From the NCBI GenBank assembly GCA_019118425.1, contig DWYZ01000235.1, forward strand, positions 1 to 33,472: 33,472 nt of DNA. Reading direction: 5' to 3'. This document shows positions 5,720 to 16,107 of this stretch, piece by piece. The notes under the pieces were generated by a model. It ran no database searches. It was not told where the DNA came from and was given only the letters and a program-made list of their open reading frames with translations. The position numbers were made by a program, and so were the translations under genes. Each line of letters opens with the position of its first letter. Position 1 is the first letter of the stretch. Source of the stretch: Candidatus Blautia faecavium (lineage in GTDB: Bacteria > Bacillota > Clostridia > Lachnospirales > Lachnospiraceae).

Positions 5720-6487
5720 ATGAAACCACTTTTGGAAGTAAAGGATGTCTGTCTCTCCTATCACAGTCTGTCAGGAGAAACCGCCGCCCTTTCCCATATC
5801 TCCTTCGATTTGATGCCAGGAGAGTTTCTCGCCATTGTTGGTCCCTCCGGATGCGGAAAATCTACTCTTTTAAACCTGATCTGCGGACTTTTAAAGGCAG
5901 AACAGGGAAGCATCCTCATGGACGGGACACCTGTCCTTTCCGGAAATTCCCGCATCGGATATATGCTCCAAAAAGACTATCTGCTGGAATGGCGCAGTAT
6001 TTATAAAAATGTGCTTCTCGGTCTTGAAGTACGCCATGAACTTACCCCGGAAAAGCTTGCTTATATTGAAGAAATGCTTATCACCTATGGTTTGGACAAA
6101 TTTAAAAACGCACGTCCCTCCCAGCTTTCCGGAGGCATGCGCCAAAGGGCTGCCCTTATCCGCACTCTTGCCCTGCGGCCGGATCTCCTTCTCCTGGATG
6201 AGCCTTTCTCAGCCCTGGACTACCAGACCCGTTTAAATGTCAGTGATGATATCGGGCGGATCCTGAAACGAGAGCACAAGCCTGCAGTCCTGGTAACGCA
6301 CGATATCTCGGAGGCCATCAGCATGGCCGATCGGGTCATCATCCTTTCTAAAAGGCCAGCCACGATCCAAAAGATCGTGCCTATAGAACTTGAAATAGAA
6401 AACCGGACGCCTCTTTCCTCAAGAAATGCTCCGGGTTTTAAATCCTATTTTAATCTGATATGGAAGGAGCTGAACAAAAATGTATGA
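5720..6487 (+). CDS. NitT/TauT-type ABC importer ATPase
   Basis: A 255-residue nucleotide-binding subunit. Walker A is GPSGCGKSTLLNL (about residues 40-52), the Q-loop follows in GYMLQKDYLLEWRSI, the signature is QLSGGMRQRAAL, and Walker B is LLLLDEPFSALD, with a switch histidine in LVTHDISEAISMADR. The DYLLEWRSI segment and overall pattern match the nitrate/sulfonate/taurine/pyrimidine-precursor importer class (NrtD/SsuB/TauB/ThiZ). The substrate cannot be told: no TPP or other riboswitch is visible and no binding-protein gene lies nearby. GGAGG lies 7 bases before the ATG. Its end overlaps the permease start by 8 bases. The partner permease is interrupted, so the transporter is probably inactive in the integrated state. 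Confidence 0.9.
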   Translation: MKPLLEVKDVCLSYHSLSGETAALSHISFDLMPGEFLAIVGPSGCGKSTLLNLICGLLKAEQGSILMDGTPVLSGNSRIGYMLQKDYLLEWRSIYKNVLLGLEVRHELTPEKLAYIEEMLITYGLDKFKNARPSQLSGGMRQRAALIRTLALRPDLLLLDEPFSALDYQTRLNVSDDIGRILKREHKPAVLVTHDISEAISMADRVIILSKRPATIQKIVPIELEIENRTPLSSRNAPGFKSYFNLIWKELNKNV

Positions 6488-7178
6488 TCCTTCACCTGCC
6501 CAAAAACAATATCTTCTTCATAAAAAGCGGGAAAAACAGTTCATCGCCATAGCCCGTGTCCTTCTTTTTCTGCTTTTTCTTGTTTTATGGGAAACTGCCG
6601 CGAAACTGGGCTGGATCGACTCCTTTATATTCGGAAGTCCTTCTCTTATCACAAAGACCTTCATAGAAATGTGTATGGATCAGTCCCTGTTTTCTCATAT
6701 CGGCATCACTCTTGCAGAGACCCTCATCAGCTTTTTCCTGGTGGTCATATCTGGCATCGGCACTGCCGTCCTCCTATGGGCATGTCCGAAGCTTTCTCAG
6801 ATTTTGGAGCCTTATCTTGTAGTTTTAAACAGCCTGCCCAAGTCTGCCCTTGCCCCTTTGCTCATTGTATGGCTTGGGGCTAACATGAGGACCATCGTAG
6901 TAGCAGGCATGTCTGTGGCAATCTTCGGATCCATCATCAATCTGTACACCGGCTTCTGCGAGATTGACCCGGAAAAAAGGAAGCTGATCGCCACCCTTGG
7001 AGGAAATAAAAAGGATGAACTTTTTAAAATCGTCCTTCCTTCATCCGTTCCCTTGATCTTAAGTATCATGAAGGTAAATATCGGCCTGTGTCTCGTAGGC
7101 GTCATTATCGGAGAATTCATCGGCGCCAGAAAAGGGCTGGGATATCTGATCATCTATGGAAGCCAGACATTTCTGTGA
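6480..7178 (+). CDS. ABC importer permease, 5' part, cut by the integrated element
   Basis: A BPD-type permease of the NitT/TauT class with five of the expected six membrane helices. The EAA-like coupling loop is at ATLGGNKKDELFKIVLPSSVP. The frame ends at GLGYLIIYGSQTFL then TGA. Relatives continue here with about 35 residues forming the last helix. That tail exists in the same strand and frame sense at 16002-16107 (FKLTWVLMSIVILC and onward). Joining the parts at TT 7170-7171 / 16000-16001 gives a 265-codon gene of normal family length. Only the last two codons (TTT CTG) and the stop come from the inserted element. The truncated protein is probably non-functional unless the element excises. 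Confidence 0.88.
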   Translation: MYDPSPAQKQYLLHKKREKQFIAIARVLLFLLFLVLWETAAKLGWIDSFIFGSPSLITKTFIEMCMDQSLFSHIGITLAETLISFFLVVISGIGTAVLLWACPKLSQILEPYLVVLNSLPKSALAPLLIVWLGANMRTIVVAGMSVAIFGSIINLYTGFCEIDPEKRKLIATLGGNKKDELFKIVLPSSVPLILSIMKVNIGLCLVGVIIGEFIGARKGLGYLIIYGSQTFL

Positions 7179-7190
7179 ATGTACATTCTG
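7151..7190. other. attL: left junction of the integrated element
   Basis: The left half (7151-7169) is permease coding sequence, the crossover dinucleotide is TT (7170-7171), and the right half (7172-7190) is element sequence ending in the arm TGTACATTCTG. That arm is the exact reverse complement of CAGAATGTACA at the other end (15981-15991), and both arms lie at the same distance from TT. The choice of TT is supported both by restored reading frame and by 19/19 symmetry. Confidence 0.85.
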
Positions 7191-7300
7191 AAAAAATCTG
7201 TCATCCACCTGTTGTTTATCCCTCCTTAAAACATCTTTAGGAAAGAGCAGACGCTCTTCCCCGAAATCTATATTTATATACAAACAGCCTCTGTACGGCC

Positions 7301-8674
7301 CTAATTTTTCTTAGGAAGAAAAATTTCCACCTCTCGTCCGTCCTTACTGATGGAAAGGCGGCCTTTGTGAGATTTTACGATCTGCTGTACGATCCGAAGT
7401 CCCATGATGTGGATCCCCTTTGGCGGTTCTTTTTCCTCCAGGATAGCCTCGCGTACCGGCAACGGGATTCCCTTTCCTGTATCTGCTACGGAAATAAGGA
7501 TATCTTCCTCTTCCTGCCGGCAGGTTACGGTAATCCTGCAGCCGTTGGGATTGTGGCGGATGGAATTTTGGATCAGGTTCCGTACCCCGCGTTTTAAAAG
7601 CTGCACATCGCCAGAAAGCTTCGTCTGCTCCAGAGACCGGTCTGTTTCCAGTTCCAGCTCATATCTTTCATCCTCTTCTCTATTTAAAAATTCTGCCACC
7701 ACGCTTCTAAGCAGGGCTGCCGGACGGTAGTCCTCCACCCGGAGAGGCTGCATCTCATAGGCCAGCTTACTTGTCAAATTCAAATCCTCGATCAGCTGCC
7801 GGATGCGGATACTCTGTTCCTGGATGATCTTTGCCTGGTTTCTCTCTTCTTCAGAAAGATTTCCGCTCTCCGCAAGATTCTCCGCATATCCTAAGATCAT
7901 AGACAAAGGTGTACGGATATCATGGGAGACTCCGGCGATCCACTCTGTTCTGGCTGTATCTCTTCTGGCAATATCCTTTTTCTGTTTTTCCAAAAGCAAG
8001 GAAATCCGGTTAAGCTGTTCTCCGACTTCTTTTACCACACCTTTCGGATGGATATTCACCGCGGTGCCTTCTGATAATTTTTCTATGCCATAGTTAATAG
8101 GAAGCAAGGACTTATGAAACTTCCTGCTCATAACGAATAGAATGACCAGAATAGCAGCTATATCCACCCAAAACAGAATGGGGATGACACGCCATAGTGT
8201 CTTTATATCTTCCCTTTCCCAGGTAAGACTATATTTTACCTGAGTATCTTTTCCATTTCCCACAGCTAAAAGCCCATTATCCGTATCCCAAACCTTCATA
8301 GGATAATCTTCCAGATACCATCGTGAAAAGGAGGCCACATCCGCCAGATCGTATCTGTGATCCAGTGTCTTAGGGAGATTCCAGGAAAATAAAATTTCTC
8401 CTGTGTCCTCATCTAAAAGCATAGCAAAGACAGCCTCTGTCTGAATGAGATATGCTTTTCCCTCTTCAGATAAGGCATATCCCTCGTCTGTTTTTTCTAC
8501 CATCTGATCTGCCGTAGCCCGAAAACGCATAATAGGAAAACGTTCTCCGTTTTTTTCTATAACAGTATTGGCCGTCAGCGCCATTAAAACCGCCAGATTA
8601 ATCATGACGAACAAAATCATCAGGACAATAGCAGTCACCAGATACCGTCTGTATATTTTCAGCAGTCCCTTCAT
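7301..8674 (-). CDS. Sensor histidine kinase (Cpr/bacitracin-type two-component system)
   Basis: A 457-residue membrane kinase. Membrane helices lie at about 11-33 and 163-183 and enclose an extracellular sensor of about 130 residues, followed by a HAMP-like linker. The phospho-acceptor is His251 in WIAGVSHDIRTPLSMILGY, the N box is NLIQNSIRHN, and the G box is VADTGKGI. The ATG at 8674 is chosen because GAGG precedes it by about 5 bases and it follows the regulator's stop codon by 13 bases; the open frame runs on to 8767 but that extension lacks a ribosome site. It is co-transcribed with the response regulator and divergent from the transporter it probably controls. The arrangement resembles CprK of Clostridioides difficile. 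Confidence 0.9.
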   Translation of the reverse strand: MKGLLKIYRRYLVTAIVLMILFVMINLAVLMALTANTVIEKNGERFPIMRFRATADQMVEKTDEGYALSEEGKAYLIQTEAVFAMLLDEDTGEILFSWNLPKTLDHRYDLADVASFSRWYLEDYPMKVWDTDNGLLAVGNGKDTQVKYSLTWEREDIKTLWRVIPILFWVDIAAILVILFVMSRKFHKSLLPINYGIEKLSEGTAVNIHPKGVVKEVGEQLNRISLLLEKQKKDIARRDTARTEWIAGVSHDIRTPLSMILGYAENLAESGNLSEEERNQAKIIQEQSIRIRQLIEDLNLTSKLAYEMQPLRVEDYRPAALLRSVVAEFLNREEDERYELELETDRSLEQTKLSGDVQLLKRGVRNLIQNSIRHNPNGCRITVTCRQEEEDILISVADTGKGIPLPVREAILEEKEPPKGIHIMGLRIVQQIVKSHKGRLSISKDGREVEIFLPKKN

Positions 8675-8687
8675 TTTTACCTCTTTC

Positions 8688-9392
8688 TTATTTTGCCATT
8701 TTATATCCCAGTCCCCGTACAGTGAGCAGATAACGGGGATGAGAAGGATCTTCTTCCACTTTTTCACGCAGCCGCCGCATATGGACCATCAGTGTATTTT
8801 CATACCCATAATAGCTGTCTCCCCAGATCGTCTCGCACAAAGTATCAAAGGTGACGATATTTCCCCTGTTCTCTGCTAATTTTTTCAGCAAAAGAAGCTC
8901 TTTGGCCGTAAGTGCAGTCTCGGCACCGTCTTTTTGGGCCACAGCGCTTTTAAAGTCAACCTGGCAGTTTCCAAGAATCAGCTTGTCTGTCCCTTCTTTT
9001 TTCTCCTGATAATGATAGGTTCTTCTAAGAATAGCGCTTACCCTTAAAATCAGTTCCTTCATCAGAAAAGGCTTGGTCATATAATCATCCGCCCCAAGTC
9101 CAAGTCCTAAAAGCCTGTCCTCATCTTCATCCCTTGCGGAGAGAAATAAAACCGGGGCCGCAGAACGTTCTCTAAGCTCCTCCATAAAAGAAAAGCCGCT
9201 TCCATCCGGAAGATTTACATCCAGGATCCAAAGCTTCACCTCATCCTTCGTAAGCTCTTCCCGCGCCTGGCTTACATTGTAAACTGCCTTTATATTAGAA
9301 AAACCGGCCTTTTTCATCAGCTCTAACACCATAGTGCAAAGCTCTCTATTATCATCCACCAAAAGGATCCGGCTTTCATGAATCTCTGACAT
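8688..9392 (-). CDS. OmpR-family response regulator
   Basis: A 234-residue regulator. The receiver domain is at about residues 8-120: acidic pocket Asp13/Asp14, phospho-acceptor Asp58 in LWILDVNLPDGSG, switch region VLFLSARDEDEDR, and conserved lysine in DDYMTKPF. The C-terminal DNA-binding winged helix (about 135-232) shows TAKELLLLKKLAENRG, TLMVHMRRLREKVEEDP and a terminal VRGLGYKMAK. An AGGAGGAG ribosome site precedes the ATG. It should be phosphorylated by the adjacent kinase and bind the phased TAAGG repeats in the 163-base gap between it and the transporter operon. It is equivalent in position to CprR of C. difficile (inference). Confidence 0.93.
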   Translation of the reverse strand: MSEIHESRILLVDDNRELCTMVLELMKKAGFSNIKAVYNVSQAREELTKDEVKLWILDVNLPDGSGFSFMEELRERSAAPVLFLSARDEDEDRLLGLGLGADDYMTKPFLMKELILRVSAILRRTYHYQEKKEGTDKLILGNCQVDFKSAVAQKDGAETALTAKELLLLKKLAENRGNIVTFDTLCETIWGDSYYGYENTLMVHMRRLREKVEEDPSHPRYLLTVRGLGYKMAK

Positions 9393-9460
9393 AATGTTCT
9401 CCTCCTTTCTTTCCTATTATAATATATTTTTCTTTTTCCGCTACTGCATTATGAAAAATT

Positions 9461-9513
9461 TAAGGTAAAAGTAAGGCAGGCTTCATCTGGATGTAAGGCA
9501 GCACATATATGAT
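9461..9513 (+). promoter_or_regulatory. Phased response-regulator sites and transporter promoter
   Basis: TAAGG occurs at 9461, 9472 and 9494, spaced 11 and 22 bases apart, that is on one helical face. The last two are part of an identical nonamer GTAAGGCAG (9471-9479, 9493-9501). A -10-like TATGAT (9508-9513) follows with no acceptable -35, and the last repeat occupies the -35 area. This is the classic layout of a promoter activated by an OmpR-type regulator. Confidence 0.6.
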
Positions 9514-9555
9514 GAATTCCATCAAAAGAATATTTACAGAAAGGAAGAAAATATT

Positions 9556-10476
9556 ATGAATTATGCAATCGAAACACACGGACTGACCAAGCTTTATTCC
9601 GGCCAGCACTCCGTTAACCATGTAGATCTCCAGATCCCAGAATACAGTATTTATGGATTTTTAGGACCTAACGGCGCCGGCAAAAGCACTACCATGAAAA
9701 TGCTCCTGGGTCTTGTCAAACCCAGCCAGGGAACCGTTTCCATCTTTGGAAAAAAGCTTTCCCAAGGCAACAGACTGGAAATCCTTAAGCACACCGGTTC
9801 ACTGATTGAATCTCCTTCCTACTACGCTCATCTTACAGGAAAGGAAAATCTTTCTCTGATCTGCATGCTGAAAAATGCTCCTGAGTCAGAGATTGACCGG
9901 GTGCTCCACATTGTCCGTATGGAAAACCAGAAAGACAAAAAGGCCGGCCAGTATTCCCTGGGTATGAAACAGCGCCTGGGATTAGCCGCCGCCCTCATCG
10001 GTTCTCCCAAGCTTCTTTTACTGGATGAGCCTACCAACGGCCTGGACCCGGCAGGGATCCAGGAAATGCGCGACCTTATCTGCTCTCTTCCAAAGGAATA
10101 CGGGATCACCGTCATGGTTTCCAGCCATCTTTTAAGCGAGATCGACCAGATGGCAACCCACACCGGAATCATTGACAAGGGCGTCCTTATTTTTCAGGAT
10201 ACCTTAAAAGCCCTTCATCAAAAAAGCGGCCGTAAGCTTCGACTCCACACTACGGACAATAATCTTGCCGCAAATATATTAAGTGCCAGGGGCATTCCTG
10301 TCCGCTATTCTTCTGACAGGCGTTTTCTCACCCTGGCAGATAACGGGGATGAAAGCACAGCCGCTGCCGTTGCTTGCCTCGTCCGCCAGAATGTAGGTAT
10401 CCTCCGTCTGGAAGAAATGGAAAATTCTTTGGAAGAAATCTTTCTTTCACTTACCGGAAAGAAGGTGAGCTTATAA
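9556..10476 (+). CDS. Lantibiotic-resistance ABC transporter ATPase (LanF/CprA/BcrA type)
   Basis: A 306-residue nucleotide-binding subunit. Walker A is GPNGAGKSTTMKMLLG (about residues 35-50), the signature is YSLGMKQRLGLAAAL and Walker B is LLLLDEPTNGLDPAG, with the switch histidine in VSSHLLSEIDQ. The SLGMKQRLG signature and the C-terminal extension of about 90 residues are typical of the BcrA/LanF group, which removes membrane-active peptides such as lantibiotics or bacitracin. An AAAGGAAG ribosome site lies before the ATG. It is the first gene of a three-gene operon, and its stop codon shares one base with the next ATG (TAATG). It is probably induced by the divergent two-component system. 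Confidence 0.9.
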   Translation: MNYAIETHGLTKLYSGQHSVNHVDLQIPEYSIYGFLGPNGAGKSTTMKMLLGLVKPSQGTVSIFGKKLSQGNRLEILKHTGSLIESPSYYAHLTGKENLSLICMLKNAPESEIDRVLHIVRMENQKDKKAGQYSLGMKQRLGLAAALIGSPKLLLLDEPTNGLDPAGIQEMRDLICSLPKEYGITVMVSSHLLSEIDQMATHTGIIDKGVLIFQDTLKALHQKSGRKLRLHTTDNNLAANILSARGIPVRYSSDRRFLTLADNGDESTAAAVACLVRQNVGILRLEEMENSLEEIFLSLTGKKVSL

Positions 10477-11228
10477 TGACTGCTTTTCTTACGGAAATAA
10501 AAAAATGCCGGGGACGAAAATTATGGTTCGTATATCTATGCGCCTTTGCCGTGATCCTTTTATGGCTGGGAGGCGCTCTCTCCCGCAATCCTCTTATGGA
10601 AACGGAGGCAGAGACAGGATATTACTATCTCCTTCTGAATTATACTTTAATGAACCTGATCTTTTTCCCAATCGTTCTTGCCACCGCTGCCAGCCGGGTA
10701 TGCGATATAGAAAATAAGGGAAATACTTACAAGCAGCTTTTTACCATGCAGTCCAGGCTTAGCCTCTTTCACTGCAAGCTCCTTTTAAACAGTATCTATA
10801 TCTTTCTTTTCTGTCTTGGAGAAGTTGTTTCTCTATATACAATGGGAAAGATCTTTCATGTCACACAGGAAGTTCCGTGGAAGCTTATAGGATGGTTTTT
10901 GGTTTCTACCTTTGGGGTCAGCCTCATTTTATATATCATGCAGCAGGTGCTCTCTCTGCTTATGGCCAATCAGCTTATGCCCTTATTTATCGGTCTTATG
11001 GGGACCTTTACCGGAGTATTTTCCGCCTTTTTCCCAAACACCATTTTAACCTCCATTGTTCCCTGGGGGTACTATGCGGTGTCCAGTCCAGTTGTAATGG
11101 AATATTCCAGGGGAGCGACTACTTTTTCCATTGTTCCCCTTCCCTTTGGACAACTGCTGGGATTCCTTATTTTCGGCCTGGCATTTTATATCATTGGAGT
11201 CAACAGATATTTAAAAAAGGAGGTTTGA
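10476..11228 (+). CDS. Lantibiotic-protection ABC permease 1 (LanE/CprB type)
   Basis: A 250-residue membrane subunit with about six helices. The short cytoplasmic N-terminus (MTAFLTEIKKCRGRKLW) leading into the first helix is typical of MutG/LanE/LanG permeases, whose members start with a charged 'E..K.K.S..W' pattern. The start at 10476 overlaps the ATPase stop by one base, a sign of translational coupling; the frame is open further upstream only inside the ATPase gene. The next permease follows after 4 bases. Together the two permeases should form the membrane channel that expels antimicrobial peptides from the membrane. Confidence 0.85.
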   Translation: MTAFLTEIKKCRGRKLWFVYLCAFAVILLWLGGALSRNPLMETEAETGYYYLLLNYTLMNLIFFPIVLATAASRVCDIENKGNTYKQLFTMQSRLSLFHCKLLLNSIYIFLFCLGEVVSLYTMGKIFHVTQEVPWKLIGWFLVSTFGVSLILYIMQQVLSLLMANQLMPLFIGLMGTFTGVFSAFFPNTILTSIVPWGYYAVSSPVVMEYSRGATTFSIVPLPFGQLLGFLIFGLAFYIIGVNRYLKKEV

Positions 11229-11232
11229 TCAA

Positions 11233-11964
11233 ATGCTGTTTTCTTGTATCAAAGGCGAAAATTTAAAACTAAAACGTTCTTTTATCTGGATTGCCTTTTT
11301 CCTTCTGCCCCTGATCCCGGCTTTCATGGGTATGAACAATTATTTGAATAACCGGGGAATTCTTACCAATGACTGGTATTCCCTATGGACCCAGGAGACT
11401 TTGTTTTATTCTAATTTTTTCTTTGCTCCTATGGCCGCTATTTACTGTGCTTATTTGTGGCGTGTGGAAAATTTTAATCACAACAGGAATTCTCTTATGA
11501 CTATGCCCGTTTCTGTAACCTGTATTTTTATGGGAAAACTCTTAAGTGCTTTTTTCGTGGTTATCCTAACCCAGCTTTGGGTAGGCGTCCTTTTTCTCAT
11601 TACCGGAAAAATGGCCGGACTCCCCGGACTGCCCTCCCTTCTTATCCTGAGCTGGCTTATGCGGGGACTCCTCGGCGCTTTAGCAGTCACTGCTCTGCAG
11701 TGTGTTCTTTCGATGTGTCTCCGAAGCTTTGCCCTTCCGGTAGGGATCGCAGCCCTTGGAAGCATTACCGGCCTGATCGCCATGAACACAAAAGCTGGAT
11801 ATTTTTATCCGTATTCTCTGATGATTTTCGGAATGAACGCCAATAAGTCTGACGATATTCTCGGAAATACCCTTACTCTCTTTCTTGGCAGCAGTATCTT
11901 CTATACAATTTTATTTACTGTCATAGGAATTTTAATTTTGAAAAAAAGAGATGTTAAAGCCTGA
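11233..11964 (+). CDS. Lantibiotic-protection ABC permease 2 (LanG/CprC type)
   Basis: A 243-residue membrane subunit with about six helices. It starts MLFSCIKGENLKLKRSFIW, the same charged N-terminal pattern as its neighbour. The AAGGAGG ribosome site lies inside the end of the preceding gene. Conserved-looking features include a long helix pair around residues 95-140 and a Gly-rich segment near residues 175-185. It is expected to pair with the upstream permease and ATPase. Which of the two corresponds to LanE or LanG cannot be decided by eye. The next gene begins after a 107-base gap that probably holds a separate promoter. Confidence 0.85.
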   Translation: MLFSCIKGENLKLKRSFIWIAFFLLPLIPAFMGMNNYLNNRGILTNDWYSLWTQETLFYSNFFFAPMAAIYCAYLWRVENFNHNRNSLMTMPVSVTCIFMGKLLSAFFVVILTQLWVGVLFLITGKMAGLPGLPSLLILSWLMRGLLGALAVTALQCVLSMCLRSFALPVGIAALGSITGLIAMNTKAGYFYPYSLMIFGMNANKSDDILGNTLTLFLGSSIFYTILFTVIGILILKKRDVKA

Positions 11965-12071
11965 AATATATTTAAAGGCCTCCTATATTTTTGTAGAATT
12001 ATATGAAATTATATGATAAAATAAGGTTGTTCTAATTATTCTTTACAAATCCAATATAAAAGGAGGTTACT

Positions 12072-13787
12072 ATGAAAAAGAGAGTTTGTGCTGTATTTAC
12101 AGCGATTTTCCTGGGTGTTACTGCGCTTCCTTCCAGTACCTTTGCAGCTGAATCTTATCAGGAAACGGAAAAGGCAGCGCTTGGTGAATTTCTTACGGAG
12201 TTTATTTCTTTATACACATCCGGACTTGATAACTATGAACAGGCTTTGGCCGGATCTTATGGCGATTTTACCATAACCTTAGGAGAAGCGGGACGGGGAC
12301 TTTTAGGCATGATGTTTCCTGCGGATGTCTCCTGGCTGGATAATCTGAAGTTTTCTACAGATGTAACAATAAAAGACGGACAGATGGGAGAAGTGTTAAA
12401 CATATCCTTAAATGATACGGATATTCTTTCTGTAAATCTGTATTCCGACTCCACGACAGGGGATGTATTCGTACAGATTCCGGAATTATCCGAGAGTTAT
12501 TTAAGCGCTAATTGGCAGGATATGTTCCAGGAAACTCAGACCCTGACAGAAGGGACTACTTCTGTGTCTCTTTCCATGGATGATCTGATAAAATATATGA
12601 GCATTTCCGAAAATATTTTAGAATATCTTCCTTCGGCAGATGCTCTGGAAAGTATCATCAATACTTATGGAACCATGTTTATCGAAGGATTTGCCGAGGG
12701 AGAAACCGGTTCCGAAACATTAACCGTATCAGATGTCAGCCAGGAATGCACTACCTTTGAGGGTGTCCTTGATAATTCTGATGCCCTAACTGTAGTGAAA
12801 GATATTCTTACTCAGGCGCGGGAAGATGAAAATATCCGCGAAATTTTAACAGGAATAGAAAACAGCGGTTCCGGAAACGAAAACCTTTACCAGCAGTTCC
12901 AGGACGGCATAGATTCTTTATCCGCTGATCTCTCAGAAAGTGAAGAAAGTGATGCTTCCGCAGTTATTTCCAAAATCTGGACAGACGATACGGACAAGAT
13001 TGTGGGGCGCCAGATTTCTTTCCAGGAGGCAGACGGTACCTCCACTCCATTTTTCACTTGCCAGACTCCGTCAAACGGCAGTGACCGTGGTCTTCTTCTG
13101 GAGTTAGGCAGTGAAGGCAGCACTATAGCTCTGACAGGAAGCGGCACAGTAAACGGCGCTACAATGAAAGGAACTTATTCTGTTCTGACAGATTCCGAAC
13201 CCGTTCTTTCCATTGAATTATCCGACTACGATACAGAGACTGCCGCAGAGGGAAAGTTAAATGGTGTTTATACACTTTCCATTCCAGCCACAGCAATCGA
13301 AGATGAAGCAGCTGCAAGTTTAATGAATGGATTTTCTCTTGCCGTTACCCTCGCTTCCGGTGAGACAGATTTCTCCGCTACAGCGGATATTTTAAGCGCA
13401 GGAGAATCTTTGCTGAGTCTGAATTTCACCTCTGATCTGGGAGACGGTGTAGAAATTCCTGATCTTACCGCAATATCAGGAACTGTATACGATACCTTAA
13501 ATGCAGATGACACTGCCGCATATGCGGAAGAAATAAGCATGGATACTATTCTGTCTAATCTTACAGCAGCTGGTATGCCGGAAACCTTCATTGAAGACGT
13601 GATCAGCGCGTTCACTTATACAGAAGAGGATTATTCCACTTATGAAGATACTTACAGCGATGACGATTCAGATGACGGATTATCGGAAGATTCCAGTGCT
13701 TATGACGATTCCTCTGCAGCGGATGATTCCATAGATGACACTCTGACTGAAGAGACCGAAGTTCCTGCGGACAGCAGCGCATCTTAA
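12072..13787 (+). CDS. Large acidic secreted protein of unknown function
   Basis: A 571-residue protein not recognised with confidence. A clear signal peptide (KK start, hydrophobic core, cleavage near TFA/AES at about residue 25) shows export. The mature part is beta-rich with alternating polar/hydrophobic stretches and very acidic. It ends in an Asp/Ser/Glu-rich tail from about residue 520 (DDDSDDGL, DDSSAADDS). There is no sortase motif, lipobox or membrane anchor, so release or non-covalent surface binding is likely. AGGAGG lies 6 bases before the ATG, and a strong terminator follows. It lies inside the mobile element, directly after the peptide-resistance transporter. A role in binding cationic peptides is attractive but purely inferential. 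Confidence 0.85.
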   Translation: MKKRVCAVFTAIFLGVTALPSSTFAAESYQETEKAALGEFLTEFISLYTSGLDNYEQALAGSYGDFTITLGEAGRGLLGMMFPADVSWLDNLKFSTDVTIKDGQMGEVLNISLNDTDILSVNLYSDSTTGDVFVQIPELSESYLSANWQDMFQETQTLTEGTTSVSLSMDDLIKYMSISENILEYLPSADALESIINTYGTMFIEGFAEGETGSETLTVSDVSQECTTFEGVLDNSDALTVVKDILTQAREDENIREILTGIENSGSGNENLYQQFQDGIDSLSADLSESEESDASAVISKIWTDDTDKIVGRQISFQEADGTSTPFFTCQTPSNGSDRGLLLELGSEGSTIALTGSGTVNGATMKGTYSVLTDSEPVLSIELSDYDTETAAEGKLNGVYTLSIPATAIEDEAAASLMNGFSLAVTLASGETDFSATADILSAGESLLSLNFTSDLGDGVEIPDLTAISGTVYDTLNADDTAAYAEEISMDTILSNLTAAGMPETFIEDVISAFTYTEEDYSTYEDTYSDDDSDDGLSEDSSAYDDSSAADDSIDDTLTEETEVPADSSAS

Positions 13788-13818
13788 AGCACCTATTATT
13801 TTCTCGTATAATATCTTT

Positions 13819-13845
13819 GCCGGGCTTTTAAGCCCGGCATTTGTT
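13819..13845 (+). terminator. Rho-independent terminator after the secreted protein gene
   Basis: A perfect 9-bp GC-rich stem, GCCGGGCTT / AAGCCCGGC, with a 2-base TT loop (13819-13838) is followed by a T-rich stretch. It lies between convergent genes: the secreted protein (plus) and the serine recombinase (minus). Confidence 0.85.
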
Positions 13846-13881
13846 TTATTCCCGCGCACAGCAGTGCTTCTCCCTTATCTT

Positions 13882-15690
13882 TCACAGCACCTCCCAGATC
13901 CCATTTCTCCCCTTTCCGCGGAAACAGATTCTCCCCTCCTTCTTTAATTCCCTGATCTTATAATTTATCCCGGATAGACTGATTCCCAGTTCTTCCGCCA
14001 GCTGCTTTGCTGTAATATGAGGATTTTCCTTCATCCTCTCTACGATTTTTTCTCTTTCCTCACGTTTCCGGCCAAAATAGTCGAACCGGTTTCCTATATC
14101 CACCCGTATATTATTTTCCTCTTTGTCTAATTCCTTACTTCCATCCTGGATATACGGCATATTATTTTCCGTATAAAAAACAAATTTAAGGTGATCCGGA
14201 TATACAAAAACCGTTTCCAACTGATCTAAAAACTCCAGCGCAGCTGCCTTTTCTATCCCTTTTTTCTCTTGCAGAAATTTTTCTATCTTTGCGATCCGCT
14301 GCTTTGCCTCCTGGCCTTTCACCTTTTTCTGTTCCAAATCATGGATTCTGCCGGCATTTTTCTGTAATTCCTGTTCCAGCTCTTTCTGTTTCATCTGGTA
14401 AATCACATCCGGGATGATCTCATCCAGCAGCTTATCTAAAAGAGCATCCATCTGCCGCCTGATCTGCTCCTGCTTTTTCTTCTGCCGTTCTATTTCCTGC
14501 CAGGTATCCTTTTCCACGAAAATATCTTCCAGCATTTTTGTACTCTTTTTTATTATTTTCTGACTGTCAAACTGCCCTGCATCAATATAAATATCCTTTA
14601 AAAGCCCATATAATGTTTTTTCGTCCAAATGTATGTTATCGCAGCCTGAGTTTTTTGAATTTTCCCGCCCGGGACAGATCCTTCCATGTGTTAAATATTC
14701 TCTGCAGCTCCAGAGCTTTGTTATTTCTTTCGTTTTCCCTTTTCTTCTTGTGATTCTGTAGTAAGGCGCACCGCATATCCCGCATCTCAGCTTCCCGCTA
14801 AGAGATGACTTGCCCTCATTTTTTCCGATTTTTTTTCCGCCGATTCCAACTGTCCTTTTCTCGTCCATCCGGTCATTTGCGCGCTGCCATAATTCTTCCG
14901 ATACAATGGCCTGAACACGATTTTCATGTATAAACTGCTTTTCTTTCGGCATTTTAATTGTTTGCTTTGAATCAAAATCATAATGCACACGACGCATGAC
15001 CACAGTTCCTTTATACATAGGATTTCGTATCATCCTACGCATATCTTCTGCTAAAAATTCTTTTCCCGTAGGCCGTGTAACGCCCTCCTGTGCCAGAATT
15101 CCGGCAATGGTCCTGCATCCATAGCCAGCGGTGTACAGCATAAAAACGCGCCGTATCACCTTTGCCTCCTCCTCAACGATTTCCACGCTCTTATCCGGTC
15201 CTTTGCAAAATCCATATGTATTAGACGGAAGCATAACAGAACCGCCTTTTTTTTGTCTGTTATAGTGAGCATTATTGATCTTTTTGCTCAGCTCCCGGCT
15301 GTACTCTTCTGCAAGAATGGCCTTTATCCCTGTAAGCAGCCCGTCATCTGTACTATAAAATTTTCTTTCTATATACATATAAAGCTGCTTCTGAGAAACG
15401 GTCAGACGATCCACAAAAAGATACCAGTCTTTTGTATTCCTCATTAATCTGTCCTGAGACTTGATGACAACGATATCGAATTTGTCCCTGAGAAGGTCAT
15501 CATAAAGCCGGTTATATTCTGTCCTTCCTCTGGTACTGGTCCCGGAACGGCTTTCTACATAGGAATCTACAAGGACCCACCCCTGTTTTTCCACACATTC
15601 CCTTGCCTCTGCCACCTGCTTTATAAGGGCATCCTTCTGGCATTCCTCTTCTGTGCTGCATCTGGCGTATATAACCGCACGGCTCCTCAT
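13882..15690 (-). CDS. Large serine recombinase (element integrase) with C-terminal winged helix
   Basis: A 602-residue site-specific recombinase. The resolvase catalytic domain (about 1-150) has the nucleophile Ser12 in VIYARCSTEEE and the motif QDRLMRNTKDW. The recombinase domain (about 155-260) contains TRPTGKEFLAEDMRRMIRNP and YKGTV. A zinc ribbon begins at LRCGICGAPYY (about 300-350), and a charged coiled coil spans about 390-460. Residues about 542-602 add a winged helix (ITAKQLAEELGISLSGINYK) that classical integrases of this family lack. The start codon overlaps the stop of the 50-aa gene upstream (ATGA). Its position next to the attR arm is typical of serine integrases. It is the likely enzyme for integration at 7170/16000; a separate directionality factor has not been identified. 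Confidence 0.92.
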   Translation of the reverse strand: MRSRAVIYARCSTEEECQKDALIKQVAEARECVEKQGWVLVDSYVESRSGTSTRGRTEYNRLYDDLLRDKFDIVVIKSQDRLMRNTKDWYLFVDRLTVSQKQLYMYIERKFYSTDDGLLTGIKAILAEEYSRELSKKINNAHYNRQKKGGSVMLPSNTYGFCKGPDKSVEIVEEEAKVIRRVFMLYTAGYGCRTIAGILAQEGVTRPTGKEFLAEDMRRMIRNPMYKGTVVMRRVHYDFDSKQTIKMPKEKQFIHENRVQAIVSEELWQRANDRMDEKRTVGIGGKKIGKNEGKSSLSGKLRCGICGAPYYRITRRKGKTKEITKLWSCREYLTHGRICPGRENSKNSGCDNIHLDEKTLYGLLKDIYIDAGQFDSQKIIKKSTKMLEDIFVEKDTWQEIERQKKKQEQIRRQMDALLDKLLDEIIPDVIYQMKQKELEQELQKNAGRIHDLEQKKVKGQEAKQRIAKIEKFLQEKKGIEKAAALEFLDQLETVFVYPDHLKFVFYTENNMPYIQDGSKELDKEENNIRVDIGNRFDYFGRKREEREKIVERMKENPHITAKQLAEELGISLSGINYKIRELKKEGRICFRGKGRNGIWEVL

Positions 15691-15839
15691 ATATTTTCTT
15701 CTTCCTGGATATTCTGCAGCATCCTGGCTTTTTCTGATGAAGAGATCAGGTTTTCTTCTGCAAGTATCTCTGCAATCTTTATCATAATACTTTGTTCATG
15801 GTTTACGAGCTTTCCTTCCATCTGCCTGGTACATTCCAT
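15687..15839 (-). CDS. 50-residue protein coupled to the serine recombinase
   Basis: A short gene encoding MECTRQMEGKLVNHEQ, then a helical region rich in Ile, Leu and Glu ending NIQEEENI. GTGAGGG lies 8 bases before the ATG. The stop overlaps the recombinase start by four bases (ATGA), so the two are translationally coupled. The middle (IAEILAEENLISSSEKARML) resembles the short SHOCT-like helical modules found beside integrases of Gram-positive mobile elements, where a 'GLISEEE' turn is typical; this match is by eye only. It may assist or direct recombination, for example as a directionality factor, but this is unproven. Confidence 0.6.
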   Translation of the reverse strand: MECTRQMEGKLVNHEQSIMIKIAEILAEENLISSSEKARMLQNIQEEENI

Positions 15840-15980
15840 CTGCCATACCCTCACTTATAACTTGCTTTTAGATATAGCAAAGAGCGGATTAAACGCCTGC
15901 CATATCCAGAGTCTTATTTTAAGATATGATCATTCTGCAGATTTGGTTACTCTATCTCTTCTATCTCTTTTAAAGGGTTT

Positions 15981-16020
15981 CAGAATGTACAGCCACTTCT
16001 TCAAGCTCACCTGGGTGCTT
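15981..16020. other. attR: right junction of the integrated element
   Basis: The left half (15981-15999) is element sequence starting with the arm CAGAATGTACA, the core is TT (16000-16001), and the right half (16002-16020) is permease coding sequence (CAAGCTCACCTGG). The attP and attB left halves share AGCCA at the same distance from the core (15991-15995 and 7161-7165). The element also supplies an AAAGGG and an ATG (15985) in frame with the permease tail. Confidence 0.85.
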
Positions 16021-16107
16021 ATGTCTATCGTTATTCTTTGTATCATTGCCATGATACTGTACGGAATTTTAAGTTTCATTGAGAGGAAATATCAGAAGCA
16101 TATATAA
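16000..16107 (+). pseudogene. Displaced 3' end of the ABC importer permease
   Basis: These 35 codons (FKLTWVLMSIVILC onward, ending ERKYQKHI) form a single membrane helix and a basic tail. They match the expected last helix of NitT/TauT-type permeases and directly continue the protein broken at 7170. In the present arrangement the segment is in frame with an ATG inside the element end (15985) preceded by AAAGGG at 7 bases, so a 40-residue peptide could in principle be made. Treated here as a gene fragment. A longer upstream reading from 15862 is an accidental fusion with element sequence. Confidence 0.85.

Follow-up and report, generated by a model that had tools for sequence, protein, structure and literature searches.

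A serine-recombinase element in an ABC permease gene of Candidatus Blautia faecavium belongs to a wide family found at one codon

In contig DWYZ01000235.1 of Candidatus Blautia faecavium, which was analysed over its whole length of 33,472 nucleotides (hereafter the window), an ATP-binding cassette (ABC) permease gene is interrupted by an element of 8,830 bp, measured core to core. What kind of DNA lies between the two gene pieces, are its boundaries real, and what does its presence mean for the transporter gene? A preliminary description of this DNA had proposed an island with exact ends and a large serine recombinase (LSR) that splits the permease across a shared TT (7170-7171 and 16000-16001). 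The splitting of the permease is confirmed here, since the predicted junction is uninterrupted in all 17 congener genes that were read. The island is indeed a real element with exact ends, but it is not a lone one and belongs to a wide family. Directly visible in the DNA are the exact ends, the sites left empty in congeners and a cargo that changes from element to element while the LSR, the small gene and the att arms stay constant. The best explanation, which we hold at a probability of about 0.8 from sequence comparison, is that the window contains a site-specific integrative element at one permease codon. All comparisons are based on one genome per species.

The split permease and its empty site

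The N-terminal 231 codons of the permease lie at 6480-7172 on the forward strand and match BPD_transp_1; the best NCBIfam model is SaoP, followed by SsuC, below cut-off. The frame runs on into element DNA and closes at 7178, where, by sequence reading, the frame 6480-7178 terminates with YGSQT-F-L-stop. The missing part of the permease comprises 35 residues and is found at 16000-16107 on the forward strand, displaced by 8,830 bp, where 35 codons and a stop encode FKLTWVLMSIVILCIIAMILYGILSFIERKYQKHI-stop. An open reading frame (ORF) at 15862-16107 was rejected as a gene, as it is a mixture of element DNA and permease tail.

The junction was verified against intact congener genes and not via joining of the two halves. 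An uninterrupted permease was looked for in relatives across the predicted TT junction and was found: in 17 of 17 loci read (L033-L037, L039-L044, L046-L051) the protein runs Y[GS]SQTFKLT..LMS without break through the whole last segment, and the segment corresponding to 16000-16107 is part of the same permease, as had been expected for 16002-16107. Because all 17 intact genes continue with F-K-L-T and the whole last segment, the predicted junction is right. The assignment to TT, with a left copy at 7170-7171 (attL) and a right copy at 16000-16001 (attR), holds because a junction at TTC, the second-best shared stretch and one base off, would put the gene out of frame as judged by sequence inspection; intact congener genes, the family's cut codon and the register of the arms all place the core there. 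An ortholog of the permease with at least 70% identity is present in 46 of 64 genomes of the genus, own genome included. Four of these orthologs are interrupted at the same codon, each by a different element (the window's genome G000 and the congeners G035, G037 and G039, whose LSRs are 49-57% identical and accompanied by other cargo), 17 were read whole, and the remaining 25 are known only by the length of their open frame (265 amino acids or more).

Independent support for the junction comes from an inverted repeat centred exactly on TT. At the ends of the window element, two 19-nt arms (7175-7193 and 15978-15996, both given on the forward strand), which would form the attP dyad, are complementary at 17 of 19 positions, each 3 nt off TT. 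We measured arm symmetry by comparing the left arm with the reverse complement of the right arm in 32 related elements, window included and the odd loci L085 and L108 left out. Symmetry was 48% in the TT-centred register, 21-29% at offsets of 1-6 and 25% in a control of random interior 50-mers, whose 99% quantile was exceeded by 27 of the 32 elements. Read outward from the core, the left consensus is roughly tagctG.G.aggCaTtcTGAtA and the right one roughly GAGgTG.G.aggCAtt.TGAtA. The idea that an in-frame ATG in the attR arm supplies a new start for the C-terminal piece was dropped, since many loci have CTG, ACG, GCG or no comparable codon at that place.

Related elements at the same codon

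The same type of element was sought elsewhere and found by an LSR-alignment scan, which returned 57 loci. L113, an unrelated locus with 24% identity and without an LSR match, was excluded from all family counts, leaving 56 further loci with at least 41% identity from Lachnospiraceae and allied Clostridia. Their record titles name Lachnospiraceae, Dorea, Hungatella, Mediterraneibacter, Clostridium and others, and three of them are the interrupted congeners (L058 in G037, L069 in G039 and L100 in G035). The fetched stretches held both permease halves in 33 loci, the N part only in 11, the C part only in 7 and neither in 5, the latter being whole contigs of 3,078-7,765 bp. The same codon is cut in 50 of the 51 loci with permease in reach, the exception being L108. 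When ten one-sided loci were followed further, nine (L063, L076, L078, L080, L083, L087, L109, L110, L111) had both halves on one contig, about 14-45 kb apart, an interval that may hold single or stacked elements; in L062 the C part sits on a different contig from the N part. The 33 elements whose two ends both fall within the locus, the window and L108 among them, span 2.5-10.3 kb, and larger ones exist, with up to about 45 kb between the permease halves. Relative to the permease the LSR is antiparallel in 37 of 51 loci and parallel in 14. Within the longest interval of about 45 kb (L227:1147-19314, G489:C11) we noted, by reading, one flagellin-like gene together with glycosyltransferase-like and sugar-enzyme-like ones.

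More distant LSRs with 32-38% identity (L190, L192, L193, L055, L056) have no permease piece. A further one, 32% identical (L191:7221-15327, G185:C70), lies by reading between two pieces (ORFs 14212-15327 and 7221-7943) of a gene for a SpoVD-like penicillin-binding protein; one DnaK-like and one methyl-accepting-type gene stand between these pieces. Across 397 genomes of the bacterial family, the permease was detected in 206 (E <= 1e-55) and the LSR in 26 (E <= 1e-100). Occupation thus amounts to at most about one eighth of the permease-bearing genomes, an upper bound because some weaker LSR hits use another target (G185) or lack a permease piece (G127, G326, G335).

While the LSR, the att arms and a small gene stay constant, the cargo differs nearly every time. 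The LSR frame is without visible break in 55 of 56 loci. A short ORF of 37-110 codons ending at or near the LSR start is present in 56 of 56, although the script would choose any such ORF; judged by eye, with 23 sequences aligned, the pattern ..LL..e.LI.peE.. is common to 55 of 56 loci and absent from L110. None of four small proteins tested had a Pfam match. The other ORFs of 75 amino acids or more form 81 clusters, 20 of them with more than one ORF, in two cases within one element. Scans of roughly half of the clusters identified, among others, an AAA-ATPase/PDDEXK_9 protein, the PADLOC candidate systems PDC-M38 and PDC-M42 (DUF3990), a sacsin-helicase protein with matches to TmtA/MkoA models, nucleotidyltransferase, ParE, HipA-like, TRAP, FecCD, Na/Ca exchanger and GGDEF-EAL proteins, as well as DUF362, a chemoreceptor, kinases, nitrilase, D-glutamate cyclase and TerD. 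The loci L071 and L072 illustrate the exchange: the N parts of their permeases are 99.3% identical in DNA, and their elements of 7.7 and 3.4 kb differ by 4.4 kb and carry different cargo.

Fate of the split gene and alternative explanations

We propose that the LSR would recombine two sites with TT as core: attP, which has dyad symmetry and lies on a circular form of the element, and a single attB, which is the F codon of the motif YGSQ[TV]F|K in a SaoP/SsuC-like ABC permease. The LSR alone would integrate the element, and the small protein encoded just before it would act as directionality factor for excision, a role likened to that of the 72-amino-acid CD1234 in skinCd (see below). In the inserted state the permease would lack its last hydrophobic segment and presumably be off; excision would restore it exactly.

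The split gene itself is well preserved. No stop codon occurs in 45 N parts (window included, that of L086 being partial and that of L108 taken from the whole gene) or, with the window again counted, within the initial 30 codons of 41 C pieces. Divergence of the C piece relative to the N part was compared among 32 split and 46 intact permeases in five bins of permease divergence; L108 and L085 were kept out of the occupied set, the whole copy of L108 was counted as intact, and L038, L045, L159 and L182 were skipped as not intact. The ratios were 1.52, 1.00, 0.99, 1.11 and 1.11 between split genes, 1.27 (one pair), 0.90, 1.01, 1.15 and 1.12 between split and intact genes, and 1.19, 0.96, 1.02, 1.07 and 1.01 between intact genes. 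N part and C piece diverge at roughly the same pace, as they do in intact genes, and the split permease has decayed little or no more than these. For this reason insertions must turn over, and the most economical reading is that the site stays occupied only transiently in evolutionary terms, with turnover by excision or by frequent fresh insertion. Transience does not separate regulated excision from frequent re-insertion.

Several observations weigh against the integrative-element model or complicate it. No excision, circle or transfer has been observed. Five of the 32 elements fail to exceed the control for arm symmetry, and the DNA flanking attB does not stand out by its conservation, with higher values in 244 of 705 windows; no specially conserved attB was found. 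In L100 and L104 the C-terminal end of the LSR falls short by about 100 residues. The C-piece tail of L107 deviates and reads on, possibly through a small frameshift. The lowest-divergence ratio is 1.52 for split genes (11 pairs) versus 1.19 for intact ones (13 pairs), and at high divergence the ratios are slightly raised between split genes (1.11 and 1.11) and between split and intact genes (1.15 and 1.12) relative to intact ones (1.07 and 1.01). Free decay is excluded, and a mild relaxation of the split permease is possible. The locus with the nearest relative of an LSR also has the nearest relative of its permease in only 14 of 44 cases. In L085 (13256-15347), which was left out of the element-length and cargo counts, the C part with attR is inverted relative to the N part, by inversion or misassembly. 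Finally, L108 (6163-13518) has a permease that is whole to its stop, an LSR in pieces and, behind an attR-like arm, a second C-terminal copy of the permease identical at 116 of 120 nt.

A special case of the integrative element would be a gene-intervening switch, in which regulated excision by the LSR and the small protein turns the transporter on; we consider this unlikely. In its favor, inspection by eye places the small gene ahead of the LSR in 55 of 56 loci, no break in the LSR was seen in 55 of 56, with the sole broken one (L108) beside a whole permease, and the split halves show little or no decay. Moreover, the synonymous distances (dS) of LSR and permease N part are similar in several sister pairs (L071/L072, L092/L114, L062/L081, L074/L111), and LSR and permease distances correlate overall (Mantel r 0.58, reached in 0 of 2000 permutations, L108 left out). 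The dS values are unlike in L098/L103 (0.52 for the LSR vs 0.98 for the permease) and L059/L066 (2.7 vs 1.1). However, occupation is sporadic, with 4 of 46 congener orthologs known to be interrupted (25 unread) and the LSR in 26 of 397 genomes, and the element is therefore no permanent component of the transporter. The cargo is swapped freely, and no link to a regulator or to sporulation was seen, though no search was aimed at one. L108 can also be read as a regenerated attB, since two C-terminal copies occur in G484 as well. For the same reason L108 was not accepted solely as repair after the death of the LSR: the two copies in G484 make regeneration of attB and stacking an equal reading. Taken together, L108 and G484 point to elements that may bring the permease 3' end with them as a copy, regenerate attB and so allow stacking. 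In G484 (L233:8746-10890, G484:C73) two permease 3' ends, both preceded by an attR-like arm, are separated by about 2 kb, in which a DUF3990-type gene pair, recognized by reading, is possibly a stacked cassette without its own LSR. Stacking of elements occurs in arrays of the staphylococcal cassette chromosome (SCC).

That the elements are instead recent one-way insertions into a dispensable gene, which is subsequently lost, seems quite improbable. Integrative and mobilizable elements (IMEs) with serine recombinases are reported to disrupt host-dispensable genes (PMC5704250), and in the window's genus the four LSRs differ by 42-52% and the permeases by 17-29%, which fits independent arrivals. 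Loss of the gene conflicts with the lack of stop codons described above and with the low nonsynonymous distances (dN) of C pieces in pairs with related LSRs: L092/L114 (dN 0.04, dS 0.68), L096/L106 (dN 0.04, dS 0.30) and L083/L109 (dN 0.05, dS 0.79), the last two being pairs without an N part in reach on both sides. A prophage remnant carrying an integrase is very improbable and was rejected. The LSR does match 432 of 50,697 phage records, all below 60% identity, but no phage structural gene was found in the window element or in the scanned cargo of its relatives (about half of the clusters), and 18 loci on viral contigs, at most 41% identical apart from two short edge matches, have no permease piece. 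An assembly artefact or chance likeness of permease pieces has a negligible probability: the window is one contig (G000:C140) of a 318-contig draft, but relatives refute this reading: in 31 further loci a related LSR is flanked by the split halves in their proper order, and likewise in 9 of 10 followed larger loci, among them L083 in G485, whose record is titled a complete genome.

Cargo, transfer capacity and relation to known systems

The LSR, the small gene overlapping it and the histidine kinase, response regulator and ABC genes of the window element agree with the preliminary description, which had named an LSR next to one end, a small coupled gene and a complete antimicrobial-peptide resistance module. 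The LSR (13882-15690, reverse strand) is a single open frame of 602 amino acids with Resolvase, Recombinase and Zn ribbon domains and a C-terminal winged helix-turn-helix. The small gene (15687-15854, reverse strand) encodes 55 amino acids, overlaps the LSR start and is a candidate recombination directionality factor. The cargo begins with a histidine kinase (7301-8674, reverse strand; the ORF is listed from 8767 and 8674 is the probable start) and an OmpR/VanR-type response regulator identified by family scans (8688-9392, reverse strand). On the forward strand follow an ABC ATPase resembling lantibiotic-protection proteins (LanF/CprA) below the curated cut-off (9556-10476), two ABC-2 membrane proteins (10476-11228, by family scan, and 11233-11964, with a weak MutE/EpiE match) and a 571-amino-acid protein (12072-13787) with a signal-like N terminus by reading and no family over cut-off. 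A 35% identical relative of the latter is encoded just 3' of the permease of G037, outside that congener's element, and plasmid records contained no match to this protein or to the DNA of the window element.

Of the antimicrobial-peptide resistance module proposed earlier, the gene set stands (histidine kinase, response regulator, ATPase and ABC-2 proteins), whereas homology remains below curated cut-offs: the ATPase reaches 262.7 of 309.75 bits with TIGR03740, and the MutE/EpiE model TIGR03732 gives 21.6 of 145.2 bits. The arrangement, in which a two-component system accompanies an ATPase and a pair of ABC-2 membrane proteins, is shared with the CprABC/LanFEG clusters (PMC5786555); as the curated lantibiotic models are not reached here, the resistance role is putative. 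The five genes occur in the same divergent order in 5 of 5 fetched congener loci (L212-L216), none of which holds the permease, and the next best ATPase in the window's own genome is 47% identical to the cargo ATPase. Because congeners keep the same five-gene cluster elsewhere, the cargo looks like a genus-resident cluster that the element picked up.

Pfam and family scans found no relaxase or conjugation gene among the proteins of the window element, which would need a helper for transfer. Helper-driven transfer is plausible because a relaxase over cut-off lies outside the element in 8 of 9 genomes with large relatives. An ATPase matching HerA stands beside the LSR in 3 of 3 large relatives tested (G489, G487, G484), and in two of them it has a TrwB-like match. 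RecT, YqaJ and DUF932 proteins are present in G489, the one large relative tested for them, with look-alikes by reading in others. Inside the element of G484 a relaxase-like protein scores 41 bits against a cut-off of 24.6, while the look-alikes in G489 and G487 stay below it (14.5 and 18.9 bits).

Two genes or regions of the window stand apart from the element. Directly 5' of the split permease, an ABC transporter ATPase (5720-6487, forward strand) is nitrate/taurine/SaoA-like below cut-offs and has 80% amino acid identity with two congeners. Near the contig end (31312-33429), a tRNA-Thr is followed after about 0.65 kb by a lysin or amidase of 464 amino acids, by reading, and this region may be a prophage remnant.

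Literature searches, from which most subscription papers and preprints were outside, returned no description of an element with this target, in line with the earlier statement that no described element with this content and target was known. Our elements share with serine-recombinase IMEs and LSR islands (PMC5704250, PMC10083194 and PMC12904643) an LSR near one end, inverted-repeat att arms, the disruption of one gene at an internal site and variable cargo. They differ in that the target is an ABC permease codon common to many genera, that the window element has no relaxase by Pfam and that the disrupted gene shows little decay. In PMC12904643, 116 of 256 matched sites are MAFF2-type genes. 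PMC10083194 reports a TT core for one LSR and describes a single site in a prolyl isomerase gene that many LSRs use, as well as a Mg-chelatase/protease gene, and its main text lacks the words permease, transporter and Lachnospir. The gene-intervening elements skinCd (PMC5025042) and gin (PMC5595907) likewise combine a serine recombinase, a small accessory protein (CD1234 with 72 amino acids in skinCd) and a restorable split coding gene; gin has no phage genes, strain-variable content, a 9-bp core and three recombinases. Here, too, exact excision would restore the split coding gene, as frame and TT core fit. In contrast, skin splits sigK and gin splits gerE, sporulation genes from which these elements are excised under sporulation control. 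A fixed site with exchangeable cargo is also shared with SCC, and the best NCBIfam models of the LSR are CcrB and then CcrC. We rejected an assignment to SCC, as the scores (95.7 and 63.9 bits) are far under the cut-offs of 900 and the target is an ABC permease and not rlmH/orfX.

In gut bacteria the family supplies LSR, attP and attB in many natural sets that belong to one site and come with candidate directionality factors. One transporter gene appears as a hotspot for swapping candidate defence, toxin-antitoxin, transport and signalling genes, with the host gene not visibly lost. We speculate, without great expectation, that the codon might be a family-wide reversible docking port where elements with swappable cargo enter and leave often while the transporter stays selected. 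It is equally tentative that transporter state and cargo could be coupled, an on/off swap-in outside sporulation for which the small protein would be key to excision. The question of gene-splitting switches outside sporulation thereby becomes testable in cultured carriers, and in dozens of species the permease site has the look of a common port at which exchangeable genes dock.

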